Source: Cardiobacteriaceae bacterium
Lineage (GTDB): Bacteria > Pseudomonadota > Gammaproteobacteria > Cardiobacteriales > Cardiobacteriaceae
Direction: 5' to 3'
NCBI GenBank assembly: GCA_030529365.1
Contig: JAUMXB010000003.1
Coordinates: forward strand, 1 to 64,000
Length of the DNA: 64,000 bases
Shown here: positions 4,314-42,005 of the stretch, piece after piece
Layout of the letters: every line of letters starts with the position of its first letter
How positions within the stretch are numbered: the first letter of the stretch is position 1
Program-made: the position numbers and the translations under genes
Notes under the pieces: generated by a model
Database searches by the model: none
The model's input: only the letters and a program-made list of their open reading frames with translations
Told to the model about the DNA's origin: nothing

Positions 4314-5054
4314 TTACAGCACCGGGGCGATTTGCATGGTTTCGCCCTGGCCCAGGCGGATCAGCATGCTTTTGTGCTTGCGGTAGGGCTCGAGTTGCTC
4401 CATGTTCTGGTATTGCCCGGCGACGGAAACCAGTTCCGCTTCCAGTTCGGCGGCGTAGATAAAAGCGCTTTCATCGCCGTGCGCACCGGCAAAGGCGCGG
4501 CCGCGCAATTGCCCGAAGACGAAAATGTTGCCGTCGGCAATCACTTCCGCACCGGCGCCGACCATGCCGATAATCACCAGATCGCAGCCCTCGGCGTAAA
4601 GACGCTGCCCGGAGCGAACATGGCGCCGCACCACCATGGTGCGCTTTTGCGGTGCGGCAGGCGGCGGAGGCGGAGGCGGTTCGGCCGCAGCAGCAGGCGC
4701 TGGCGTTTGTGCAGGGCGTTCATGGCTTGCGGGTACGCTGTTTTTGCCGGCGCTGCCTGCGATATGCGCAAGACCGGCCTCTGCCAGCGACTTGTCATCC
4801 AGAGTTTCTGCCTGAATGCCGATGAGCGTGAGGCCATGGCGGGCAAACAGGGCTTTCAGGGTTTGCAGCCAGGCGCTGTCGCCGAGGCGCTCTGCGCCGA
4901 AATCCGCCACGAAAGGCGAAGCCGTGAAAAAACCGGCAGGCGCTTCGGCCATTTTGGCGGCGAGCAGTTCGTCGATAACGGCGGGATCGGTGGAAGGAAG
5001 GGAAACGATGGTGACGGGATGGTTGCGGGTTTTGAAGACCAGGGTATCGCGCAT
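4314..5054 (-). CDS. minC: Septum site-determining protein MinC
   Basis: 246 residues (E. coli 231). The N-terminal FtsZ-inhibiting domain spans about residues 1-105. A linker rich in Ala and Pro, with a run of seven prolines, follows at about 115-140. The C-terminal beta-helix domain (GDGNIFVFGQLRG-like segment, AELEAELVSVAG) binds MinD and dimerises. The ATG at 5054 is chosen because AAGGA lies 7 bp upstream; an upstream in-frame ATG at 5090 lacks this. The minC-minD gap is 71 bp. Confidence 0.95.
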   Translation of the reverse strand: MRDTLVFKTRNHPVTIVSLPSTDPAVIDELLAAKMAEAPAGFFTASPFVADFGAERLGDSAWLQTLKALFARHGLTLIGIQAETLDDKSLAEAGLAHIAGSAGKNSVPASHERPAQTPAPAAAAEPPPPPPPAAPQKRTMVVRRHVRSGQRLYAEGCDLVIIGMVGAGAEVIADGNIFVFGQLRGRAFAGAHGDESAFIYAAELEAELVSVAGQYQNMEQLEPYRKHKSMLIRLGQGETMQIAPVL

Positions 5055-7664: not shown

Positions 7665-7749
7665 AAAATAGTGATTTTTTACCATTGATAAGCGCTTATT
7701 GTGGTAAAAAATGACGATATAAAGCGCTTGGTATGGTGATTTTTTATCG
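7665..7749. repeat. Paired AAGCGCTT element, copy 4
   Basis: Cores at 7690 and 7722, 32 bp apart. Arms are ATTTTTTACCA / TGGTAAAAAAT. The aat stop codon (7744-7746) lies within the right arm. Confidence 0.88.
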
Positions 7750-38909: not shown

Positions 38910-38995
38910 AAAAATATTTCATTTTTACCGTTAATAAGCGCTTATGGTGAGAAATTTTATCGCGGAAAGCGCTTTTTGGTGAGAAAATTTCCCAT
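38910..38995. repeat. Paired AAGCGCTT element, copy 14
   Basis: Cores at 38936 and 38967, 31 bp apart. It lies between the convergent ends of rpiA and dksA. Confidence 0.9.
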
Positions 38996-39272: not shown

Positions 39273-39701
39273 TCAGCCGCGGTGTTCGTGGAAGGTTTTT
39301 TCCTGGCGCTCGGCGATTTCCTTGCAGTCTATGCAAAGTTCGGCGGTGGGGCGCGCTTCCAGGCGTCCGACGCCGATTTCTTCCCCGCATTTTTCGCACC
39401 AGCCAAATTCGTTGTTGGCGATGCGCTCCAGCGCTTTGTCGATTTTGCGCAGGAGTTTGCGTTCGCGGTCGCGCGTGCGCAGCTCAAGGGAGAATTCCTC
39501 TTCCTGGGTGGCGCGGTCGTTCAGGTCGGCGGTTTGTACGGCTTCATCCTTGAGGTGGGCACGGGTGCGCTCGCTTTCTGCAAAGATGCTGTCTTTCCAG
39601 TCTATGAGCAGTTTTTCAAAATGGGCGCGCTGCGCGGGATTCATGTATTCCTCTGCGGCTTTGGCAGGAGCGGCTTTTTTGGTTCCCCGTTTTGTGGTCA
39701 T
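39273..39701 (-). CDS. dksA: RNA polymerase-binding transcription factor DksA
   Basis: 142 residues. An N-terminal region and coiled coil (residues ~30-105; acidic tip DLNDRATQEEE) insert into the secondary channel of RNA polymerase. The zinc finger has C-x-x-C as CEKCGEE and CIDC. It works with ppGpp in the stringent response. GGAGGTCAGC precedes ATG 39701. Confidence 0.97.
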   Translation of the reverse strand: MTTKRGTKKAAPAKAAEEYMNPAQRAHFEKLLIDWKDSIFAESERTRAHLKDEAVQTADLNDRATQEEEFSLELRTRDRERKLLRKIDKALERIANNEFGWCEKCGEEIGVGRLEARPTAELCIDCKEIAERQEKTFHEHRG

Positions 39702-39763
39702 GCTGACCTCCGTCTGGTTATGGTTAAAATGCGGCGCAATATTAGCCAAGGGGCGTTTTTATG

Positions 39764-40579
39764 TCAAAAGCCTTTTCCTTTAAGCAGGTGGCGCGCGCCG
39801 GCAGGGAGACTGGCGAGGTAGAAAAGGCCAGTGAAGAGGACGATGCTGGGTGAGGGCGGCCAGTCCTGCCACCAGGCGAGTGCGGTGCCGGCGGTGGCGG
39901 AGATGGCGGAGATGATGGCGGCGATGGCGACGCTTTGTTCGGGGGTACGGGCAAGGCGGCTTGCGGTGTTGGCGGGGATGATGAGGAGGGCGATGACGAG
40001 GAGCAGGCCGAAAAATTGCGCCATGAAGCCGATAAAGAGGCCGAGGAGGAGCAGGAAGATGAAGTCGTAAAGCGCGCTTTTCGGCTGTTCGGCGCTGGCG
40101 ATGTCGGCGCTGAGTGTCATGAGGATGAGGGGTTGCCAGAGGCGGCGCAGGATGGCGAGGGTGGCGAAGGAGAGGATGAGGATGAGGATAAGGTCTTGCG
40201 TTTGCGTGGCGAGGATGTCGCCGAAGAAGTAGGCGGTGAGGTCGGTGCGGATGTGTTCGAGGCGGGAGATGATGATGTAGCCTGTGGCGAGGGCGAGATG
40301 GGAGAGGCTGCCGAGGATGGTGTTGCCGTCGCTGCGGGTGTGGCGGCGCAGGAAGTGGAGCATGAGGACGATGGCAAGGGTGATGATCCAGATGCCGATG
40401 TAGGGGGGGATGCCGAGGAGCAGGCTGGCGGCGATGCCGAGCAGGGAGCTGTGCGCCACGGTTTCGCCGAAATAGACGAGGCGTCGCCAGCAGAGCAGGT
40501 TGCCGAGCGGTGCGGCGGCAAGGGCGGTGACGAGGGCGGCGAGCCAGGGAATGAGGATGAAGGAGATGATGGTCGGCAT
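39764..40579 (-). CDS. znuB: Zinc ABC transporter permease
   Basis: 271 residues, seven or eight transmembrane helices of the ZnuB/TroC family (LLCWRRLVYFGETVAHSSLLG, FFGDILATQTQDL, ALLIIPANTASRLA). It forms the membrane channel for zinc with ZnuC. A paired AAGCGCTT element begins directly at the start codon, so the ribosome site lies within the repeat. An opposing gene separates it from znuC. No znuA is in the window. Confidence 0.92.
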   Translation of the reverse strand: MPTIISFILIPWLAALVTALAAAPLGNLLCWRRLVYFGETVAHSSLLGIAASLLLGIPPYIGIWIITLAIVLMLHFLRRHTRSDGNTILGSLSHLALATGYIIISRLEHIRTDLTAYFFGDILATQTQDLILILILSFATLAILRRLWQPLILMTLSADIASAEQPKSALYDFIFLLLLGLFIGFMAQFFGLLLVIALLIIPANTASRLARTPEQSVAIAAIISAISATAGTALAWWQDWPPSPSIVLFTGLFYLASLPAGARHLLKGKGF

Positions 40580-40661
40580 GGTGATTTTTTCTCATGGAAA
40601 AGCGCTTTTGGCGATAAATTTTCTCAATACAAGCGCTTCTTGATGGTAAAAAATGATGGTT
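40580..40661. repeat. Paired AAGCGCTT element, copy 15
   Basis: Cores at 40600 and 40631, 31 bp apart. It abuts the znuB start codon and lies between divergent genes. Confidence 0.88.
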
Positions 40662-40725
40662 TTGCGTTGGTTTGTGTGGTGTGCTATGGTTCGGTTCGCT
40701 AAGGTTTTTTTCCCAGGGGAGTACG

Positions 40726-41232
40726 ATGATGAAGGGTTTGAATCGCAAAGTGTACGAGTTCTTTTGGGGGCGTGATCGTGATGCGGCAACGCGGCGCGAT
40801 CTCGATGAGGGGATTGCGCTGAATATGGGCTGGCTGCTGGGGATGTCGATAGTCGGGTGGCTGGTGATTACGGTGGCGCAGCGTTTCGATGCGCAGTGGG
40901 CAAGGGAGGCGTGGCTTGCGCAGCTGGTATTCATATTTGTGATCATTTTGCCGTTGCTCAATCCGCAGACGCGGCGGATTCTTTATGTGCGCAGGAAACC
41001 GCGCGCCGGGGATTATCCGGCGTATATGGCGGAGGTGCGCAAGCGGATATTGCGCGGTACGCCGGTTGTTGCAGTGATGGCGGGTTTGGCGATGTCCATG
41101 AGCGATGGCTGGGTGTTCTGGTTGACGAAAGTGTTGATAACCACGGCGTTGTTTGTCGGCATCTTTTATCTGGTCGAATATGTTGGGGCGCAGCAGGTGC
41201 TGGCGAAAGATGGTGAGCATAATAGAGAGTGA
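40726..41232 (+). CDS. Unknown inner membrane protein between znuB and znuC
   Basis: 168 residues. About four hydrophobic helices in two pairs (LNMGWLLGMSIVGWLVITV, LAQLVFIFVIILPLL, then GTPVVAVMAGLAMSM and FWLTKVLITTALFVGIFYLV), with a basic N-terminus and a basic loop after helix 2. No family is recognised. CAGGGGAG precedes ATG 40726. It is opposite in strand to znuC and znuB and is flanked by two AAGCGCTT elements, which suggests it entered the znu locus by recombination between copies. Confidence 0.7.
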   Translation: MMKGLNRKVYEFFWGRDRDAATRRDLDEGIALNMGWLLGMSIVGWLVITVAQRFDAQWAREAWLAQLVFIFVIILPLLNPQTRRILYVRRKPRAGDYPAYMAEVRKRILRGTPVVAVMAGLAMSMSDGWVFWLTKVLITTALFVGIFYLVEYVGAQQVLAKDGEHNRE

Positions 41233-41304
41233 TTTTTTCATTTTTCTTTTTATGTAAGGTTTCTTTGTCGGGTTTGGCGCTTCTTGATGGTAAAAAATGA
41301 TTAT
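41227..41304. repeat. Degraded AAGCGCTT element, copy 16
   Basis: Starts GAGTGATTTTTTC, has one degenerate core TGGCGCTT at 41275, and ends TTGATGGTAAAAAATGATTA like copy 15. The znuC stop (41301-41303) lies in its right arm. Confidence 0.65.
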
Positions 41305-42005
41305 AAATGCTGATGGTCGTGGTGATGGATGTAGAGGCCGATGTTGTCGTCGGCTTCCGGGAAGAGGCGGGTGAATTCGGGGTGGCTGCGAATGGTTTCC
41401 GGGCTGCCCTGGCAACAGACATGGCGGTTGAGGCAGATGACGGTGTGGCTTTGCGCCATGACGAGGTGCAGGTCGTGCGAGACCATCAGCACGGCAAAGC
41501 CGAGTTCGGCCTGCGCTTTGTGGATGACGGCGTAAAAGCCGGAGAGGGCGCCGGGGTCGATGCCGGCGGCAGGTTCGTCGAGGATGATGAGGTCGGGTTT
41601 TTTCAGGATGGCGCGGGCAAGGAGCAGGCGCTGGGTTTCGCCGCCGGAGAAGTTTTGCAGGCGGGTGGCGAGTTTGTGGGCAATGCCGAGTTCTTCGAGC
41701 CACGGGCTTTGCAGGGCGTGGGGGATGTCGTGCAGAAAGCGGGCGGCGGTGACGGGCAGGTCGGGCGGGGGATGGAATTTTTGCGGAACGTAGGCCATGT
41801 TGAGGCCGTTTTTGCGCCGAATGCTGCCGCTGCCCGGGCGCAGTTTGCCGGTCACCAGCGAGAGCAGGGTGCTTTTGCCCGCGCCGTTGGGGCCGACGAT
41901 GGTGAGGATTTCCCCGGGCATGATGCGCAGGTGGATGTCATGTAGAATGGCGCGCTCCTGGTCGCGGTAGGCGACGTTTTCGAGTGCGATGAGGGGTTCG
42001 CTCAT
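41301..42005 (-). CDS. znuC: Zinc ABC transporter ATP-binding protein
   Basis: 234 residues. Walker A GPNGAGKST at 38-46, signature FSGGE at 119-123, Walker B with LDEPAAGID at 142-150, and the switch His in MVSHDLH. The C-terminus YIHHHDHQHL is His-rich, as often seen in zinc ABC components. The frame extends upstream to 42887 antisense to priA; ATG 42005 starts the ABC domain. It is divergent from priA with 44 bp between starts. Confidence 0.94.
   Translation of the reverse strand: MSEPLIALENVAYRDQERAILHDIHLRIMPGEILTIVGPNGAGKSTLLSLVTGKLRPGSGSIRRKNGLNMAYVPQKFHPPPDLPVTAARFLHDIPHALQSPWLEELGIAHKLATRLQNFSGGETQRLLLARAILKKPDLIILDEPAAGIDPGALSGFYAVIHKAQAELGFAVLMVSHDLHLVMAQSHTVICLNRHVCCQGSPETIRSHPEFTRLFPEADDNIGLYIHHHDHQHL

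Follow-up and report, generated by a model that had tools for sequence, protein, structure and literature searches.

A znuC–znuB gene pair split by an opposed orphan gene in a Cardiobacteriaceae bacterium

Introduction

In Staphylococcus aureus, the genes menE-menC-MW1733-ytkD-MW1731 form a noncontiguous operon, for which co-transcription across an opposed gene was shown (Saenz-Lahoya et al., 2019, as related in the review PMC7154746). Zur-controlled znuCB genes are reported for Yersinia pestis (PMC2706843) and, as zurznuCB, for Acinetobacter baumannii (PMC3516566), and the reference Zur-box core used in this work is the gammaproteobacterial one as printed in these two papers. The locus described here lies in a window of 64,000 nt (the whole stretch of DNA that was analysed) from a Cardiobacteriaceae bacterium; in it znuC and znuB are parted by a gene of the opposite orientation, and elements built on the octamer AAGCGCTT lie on both sides of this gene. 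REP/BIME, ERIC and Correia elements are intergenic palindromic repeats present in hundreds of imperfect copies. Another repeat, the cyanobacterial HIP1, is found 300–2700 times per million bases, as given in PMC4390886. Among the matches listed in our literature searches, no title or abstract opening on the octamer concerned Cardiobacteriaceae, and none on Cardiobacteriaceae repeats concerned elements of this kind.

Results

Layout of the locus

The original prediction, made from the letters of the window, held that znuB and znuC are split by a plus-strand gene with AAGCGCTT material on both sides, and the coordinates bear this out:

39273-39701, minus strand: dksA, beyond znuB on its downstream side
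39764-40579, minus strand: znuB, zinc ABC transporter permease, intact, 271 amino acids
40583-40657, unstranded: element copy 15, with a left arm, two AAGCGCTT cores (40600 and 40631, 31 bp apart) and a right arm
40633-40657, plus strand: left copy of a 25-bp direct repeat, GCGCTTCTTGATGGTAAAAAATGAT, exact match
40662-40690, plus strand: candidate promoter of the middle gene, TTGCGT-17-TATGGT with TG before the -10, read by eye
40726-41232, plus strand: middle gene, a 168-amino-acid orphan opposed to both neighbours
41246-41301, unstranded: element copy 16, left half decayed, a GCGCTT remnant and the right arm kept
41277-41301, plus strand: right copy of the 25-bp direct repeat, GCGCTTCTTGATGGTAAAAAATGAT, exact match
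41301-42005, minus strand: znuC, zinc ABC transporter ATPase, intact, 234 amino acids
42027-42039, unstranded: Zur-box-like site GTTATAGTGTATC, inside the 44-bp znuC/priA gap, 10 of 12 matches to GTTATANTATAAC
from 42050, plus strand: priA, on the other side of znuC and divergent from it

Copy 15, whose cores are exact, has its near end about 4 nt from the start codon (ATG) of znuB; it takes up half of the divergent gap between znuB and the middle gene and spans the 5' leader of znuB. The right arm of copy 16 runs as far as the first base of the znuC stop codon, which occupies 41301-41303 of the plus strand. The three-gene order and the elements on both sides are also present in an independently assembled genome of the same genus (G001, locus L037), hence they do not result from an assembly error. 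In this sister species the same element occupies the place of copy 15, the gap between znuB and the middle gene has the same length of 146 bp, and the counterpart of copy 16 is a single-core element with two arms.

The split is derived

Fifteen neighbourhoods were fetched from relatives and the genes of the window were mapped onto each. In 11 of the 15, znuC and znuB lie next to each other in the same direction, namely in seven genomes of the family (G003, G004, G005, G006, G007, G010 and G011) and in four outgroups (G013, G014, G045 and G046). One of the 15, G001, has the gene order of the window. Two genomes (G002 and G008) carry a znuB-like gene with no znuC nearby and are uninformative on gene order. 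In G009 an unrelated, co-directional gene lies between znuC and znuB (L041, 8359-9054); it resembles SMI1/KNR4 with 24.5 bits, just below the Pfam cut-off of 25.4, and since it differs from the middle gene of the window, at least two invasions of the znuC-znuB junction have taken place in the family. The middle gene itself turned up in 2 of 57 relatives, a count that includes the genome of the window, and a search of genome contigs confirmed a single locus, the G001 contig. On the genomes seen, of which G001 is the only other member of the genus returned by the relatives search, the split is thus derived and arose in the ancestor of the genus. The insertion proposed in the original prediction is supported by these results, as relatives outside the genus mostly keep znuCB intact and the middle gene is confined to the genus; the arrangement is not one that all relatives share, and there is no sign that the middle gene is a conserved member of a zinc pathway.

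Both znu genes are clearly recognizable members of their families, as znuB matches Pfam ABC-3 (PF00950; 187 bits, 5e-55) and znuC matches ABC_tran (PF00005; 98 bits), each above the cut-off. The best NCBIfam hits are ZnuB (7e-58; 196 bits, equivalog cut-off 284) and ZnuC (7e-73; 245 bits, cut-off 306), and since neither reaches its curated threshold, the znu-like naming rests on these best hits, on the neighbouring genes and on the Zur box. Identity with the sister species is 85% for znuB and 84% for znuC; dN and dS are 0.101 and 0.303 for znuB, and both znu genes have values of about 0.10 and 0.30. The two znu genes and the middle gene are all under purifying selection.

Regulation of znuC and znuB

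The GTTATAGTGTATC site ahead of znuC is one of only two sites in the 155,848-bp contig that match the Zur core as well as 10/12, and it is also present in G001. The corresponding gap of eight other family genomes contains matches of 9–12 out of 12, those of four relatives, at 9/12, being weak since 27 sites of at least 9/12 occur in the contig. A degenerate pattern built from GTTATAGTGTATC has a single match in the whole genome, a count that is partly circular. The motif is supported by a second locus of the same genome, L074, where two 10/12 sites lie about 90–115 bp before a ZnuA match. A predicted Zur box, matching at 10/12 and conserved in the family, would thus stand at the head of the operon. 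In the gap before znuB the best Zur match is 7/12, which is background, and our scan of the minus strand of this gap found no sigma-70-like site. On the downstream side of znuB, a near-consensus promoter of dksA (TTGACA-17-TAATAT, 39739-39767) lies against the znuB 3' end; it has been conserved in the sister species as well.

These observations lead us to propose, with a probability of about one half, that the znuC-znuB operon was originally intact and under Zur control, that an opposed gene for a small membrane protein broke into it in the ancestor of the genus, and that znuB is served by predicted antisense read-through. The zinc-responsive promoter upstream of znuC would still serve znuB by transcription running antisense through the middle gene. 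The reason for invoking read-through is that the gap before znuB contains neither a Zur box nor a canonical promoter, so that zinc control of znuB, if it was kept, must come from znuC. The znuB leader of such a transcript would lie within copy 15, and the mRNA of the middle gene, being antisense to the spacer of the znuC-znuB transcript, could lower ZnuB relative to ZnuC or uncouple the two. No terminator-like site was found at copies 15 or 16 by our scan, which detects one at only 6 of the 38 convergent gene ends of the contig, so that this absence is little informative. Read-through would nevertheless require about 720 nt of untranslated RNA, in which Rho is expected to terminate transcription, and the Zur site at znuC is imperfect (10/12), zinc regulation being deduced from it. 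More tentatively, the locus may function as a noncontiguous operon, in which Zur-controlled transcription would proceed from znuC across the antisense orphan to znuB, expression of the orphan would set the ZnuB:ZnuC ratio and the AAGCGCTT element would act as the znuB leader; taken as a whole, we hold this extended scheme to be possible and rather doubtful.

A serious alternative, to which we give somewhat less than even chances, is that the insertion occurred as proposed above but that znuB has a zinc-independent promoter of its own and is uncoupled from znuC, the middle gene being a passenger. Within the middle gene, some 240 bp ahead of znuB and on the znuB strand, there is indeed a conserved promoter-like site (9/12; 40849-40822), and the lack of a Zur box in the gap before znuB and the long untranslated spacer that disfavours read-through point the same way. 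However, this site would be conserved in any case, as it falls where the middle gene is coding, and it scores close to background (a shuffled region should contain about 0.8 of them by chance); in addition, the permease and the ATPase of one importer would be placed under different control.

The elements of the window and of related genomes

The octamer AAGCGCTT occurs 55 times in the window, where 2.5 copies are expected, and 1674 times in the whole genome compared with 54 for the reversed control. Pairs of cores with 22–24 bases between them number 443 in G000, the genome of the window, 428 in G001 and 18 in G003, and the other nine of the 12 genomes have none. The elements have a modular build, in which TGAGAAATTTTCTCA-like spacers separate the AAGCGCTT cores and GGTAAAAAAT-like arms form the ends. 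The spacer between paired cores is symmetric, for instance at 38936-38974 of the window and in all the 31-bp pairs of the contig. Single copies fold better than shuffled sequences (for copy 15, z is -2.85 and -4.13 on the two strands), and a search for spacer-arm covariation over 51 copies found none, all column pairs having an absolute z of 1.7 or less. As the spacer arms vary independently, the symmetry of the elements argues for DNA-level sites, which may be bound by a symmetric protein, rather than for a conserved RNA hairpin. A role as terminators was considered as the main function of the elements and rejected, because the spacer arms do not covary and elements are present in 9 of 18 divergent gaps of at least 100 bp. 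Single AAGCGCTT copies also occur inside called genes, 28 of them in the 122,574 genic bases of the contig, and these are devoid of AT-rich arms.

In genus g3 (G003; loci L044, L070, L071, L072 and L091) the octamer, extended to CAAAGCGCTTTG, occurs 281 times in 95 kb and 4391 times genome-wide. The copies, dispersed at about 3 per kb, are so dense that genes must be included. In genus g2 the octamer is depleted, with 4 copies in G002 and 7 in G008 compared with 49 and 41 for the reversed control. C5 methylation as the reason for the octamer was rejected, since no C5 methyltransferase was found in G000 or G001; one was found in G003. G002 has seven C5 methyltransferase matches, in about six genes, and restriction avoidance is possible in this genome.

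Elements and the arrival of the middle gene

The original prediction attributed the insertion to recombination between element copies, and we did not find this cause to be established. Gap statistics were obtained with a home-made gene caller seeded with seven known genes, rather than from a standard annotation, and by this count a core is present in 49 of the 75 contig gaps of at least 100 bp; among the 58 genes that have 60 bp or more of intergenic space on each side, 16 are flanked on both sides by a core and 19 by a core or an arm. The placement of elements is biased towards stop codons: of 66 stop sides, 18 have an arm end within 5 nt of the codon, compared with 5 of 60 start sides, hence the overlap of copy 16 with the znuC stop is usual and the abutment of copy 15 on the znuB start is less so. 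Arms often run over the neighbouring stop codon (15 of 66 stop sides overlap or touch, e.g. at 7690, 59503, 83977 and 140718), as if elements supplied gene ends.

Entry of the middle gene as an element-gene-element cassette, by homologous recombination between AAGCGCTT elements that would rearrange the genome, is accordingly an unlikely explanation. It is favoured by the arms bounding the insert, which reach within a few bases of both znu genes, by the 25-bp exact direct repeat, one of the five longest of 630 arm-pair matches, and by the comparison of junctions with G001, where elements are found in 13 of the 20 gaps at which gene order is broken and in 11 of the 34 at which it is conserved, when all gap lengths are taken (P = 0.026). 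This excess arises because gene-order breaks fall between genes, as elements do, and it vanishes at matched gap length, with 13 of 18 broken versus 11 of 18 conserved for gaps of at least 60 bp (P = 0.72) and 12 of 15 versus 10 of 15 for gaps of at least 100 bp (P = 0.68), in a test of low power that used stretches of 20 G001 contigs and orthologues for 50 of 132 genes. In addition, bracketing by elements is common, as is the extension of arms onto stop codons; none of the relatives seen carries an element between znuC and znuB where these are still neighbours; and the sister species has the insertion without the 25-bp identity. The broader proposal that the elements are agents of local rearrangement keeps the direct repeat in its favour and loses the enrichment at breaks. 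One gene-order break between the two species, at about 4840-5180 of L069 and about 95223 and 60407 of the contig, lies beside an element pair (cores at 4787 and 4818 of L069 and at 95236 and 95267 of the contig). In conclusion, copies 15 and 16 are ordinary intergenic repeats of this genome and do not reveal how the gene arrived; as evidence for a route of arrival, the flanking elements weigh weakly.

The two right arms do share sequence, as had been noticed, although over an exact match of 25 bp (GCGCTTCTTGATGGTAAAAAATGAT) rather than the 18 bp of TTGATGGTAAAAAATGAT, which occurs exactly twice in the contig (40640 and 41284). In the comparison of all arm pairs of the contig, 5 of 630 share at least 25 bp, the copy 15/16 pair being among them as a single pair that was spotted before being tested; the partners of the four other pairs are 23–48 kb apart. 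In the sister species the two arms share about 10 bp, and the copy 16 arm of the window, compared by eye, resembles copy 15 more than it does its orthologue. The absence of the 25-bp repeat from the sister species fits later gene conversion better than a relic of the insertion, which suggests that exchange or gene conversion between copies 15 and 16 may have followed the insertion.

The middle gene

The protein encoded by the middle gene is 62% identical between the two species, with a dN of 0.279 and a dS of 0.656 (dN/dS 0.43), and identities at the three codon positions are 0.70, 0.80 and 0.66. These substitution rates, together with the least change at second codon positions, point to a real, fairly fast-evolving protein. 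A clear ribosome-binding site precedes the gene in both species, and the candidate promoter, with 8/12 matches, is below the scan threshold and has a similar counterpart in the sister species. A structure model made from two sequences, and therefore weak (mean pLDDT 66.5), contains four long helices, which are probably transmembrane; a fold search of the PDB with this model gave no match below E 0.4. The insert consists of this one membrane-protein gene, and a search for a transposase or integrase found none.

Among 369 genomes of the class, only that of the window contains a convincing match to the middle gene; the 8 other genomes among the 9 with E ≤ 0.01 gave fragments (E 9e-4 to 0.0096), some in long frames or across stops, which we took as noise. 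An origin from a phage, a plasmid or a defence system was rejected, as there was no match in phages or plasmids, none of 38 pattern matches in viral contigs was confirmed, PADLOC gave nothing and the best PHROGs hit had an E of only 0.089.

Birth of the gene within the znuC-znuB spacer, either de novo or out of highly diverged DNA, once that spacer had expanded and been colonized by elements, would account for the lack of homologues outside the genus in the searches made and for a coding score that is the third lowest of the 132 called genes. We nevertheless regard it as improbable: the ribosome-binding site is clear in both species, four helices are predicted and the gene is under purifying selection, small membrane proteins diverge fast, so that absent homologues are weak evidence, and a faint match to Pfam DUF983 (PF06170) covers the first helices (E 0.0078, 38 residues, 17 of 22.6 bits and thus below the gathering cut-off).

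Discussion

This locus offers a clear example of an operon that an opposed orphan gene has divided and that selection maintains in the divided form. Should transcription from znuC read through to znuB, the locus would be a noncontiguous operon under Zur control, a class for which S. aureus is the worked example of the review PMC7154746. If there is no read-through, a metal importer would have its permease and its ATPase under separate control. This work also carries a warning: in a genome whose larger intergenic gaps are occupied to two thirds by such repeats, finding them on either side of an insert says little. The more novel thread lies in the elements themselves and in their relation to the g3 palindrome CAAAGCGCTTTG.

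Compared with known systems, the AAGCGCTT elements resemble REP/BIME, ERIC and Correia repeats in forming hundreds of imperfect palindromic intergenic copies, and they differ from them in being modular, with cores 31 bp apart and spacer arms without base-pair covariation. The g3 palindrome, at about 3 per kb, is near the upper counts of HIP1, from which it differs in sequence and lineage; moreover, in the genus of the window the copies are mostly intergenic and often paired, and no C5 methyltransferase was found in the two genomes G000 and G001. As in Y. pestis and A. baumannii, ZnuC and ZnuB homologues are encoded with a Zur-box-like palindrome before the first gene, whereas here an opposed orphan lies between znuC and znuB, znuA is elsewhere and znuC diverges from priA. 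In arrangement the locus resembles the S. aureus noncontiguous operon: there as here, co-directional functional partners are parted by one gene of the opposite strand. One feature that defines this class, an opposite-strand gene between genes of one pathway, is present at this locus; the class is further defined by a single transcript of the outer genes, antisense to the inner one, and by overlapping transcripts that regulate each other reciprocally. The difference is that here co-transcription is predicted from the layout, and that the genes concerned would form a transporter operon headed by a Zur-like box in a gammaproteobacterium.
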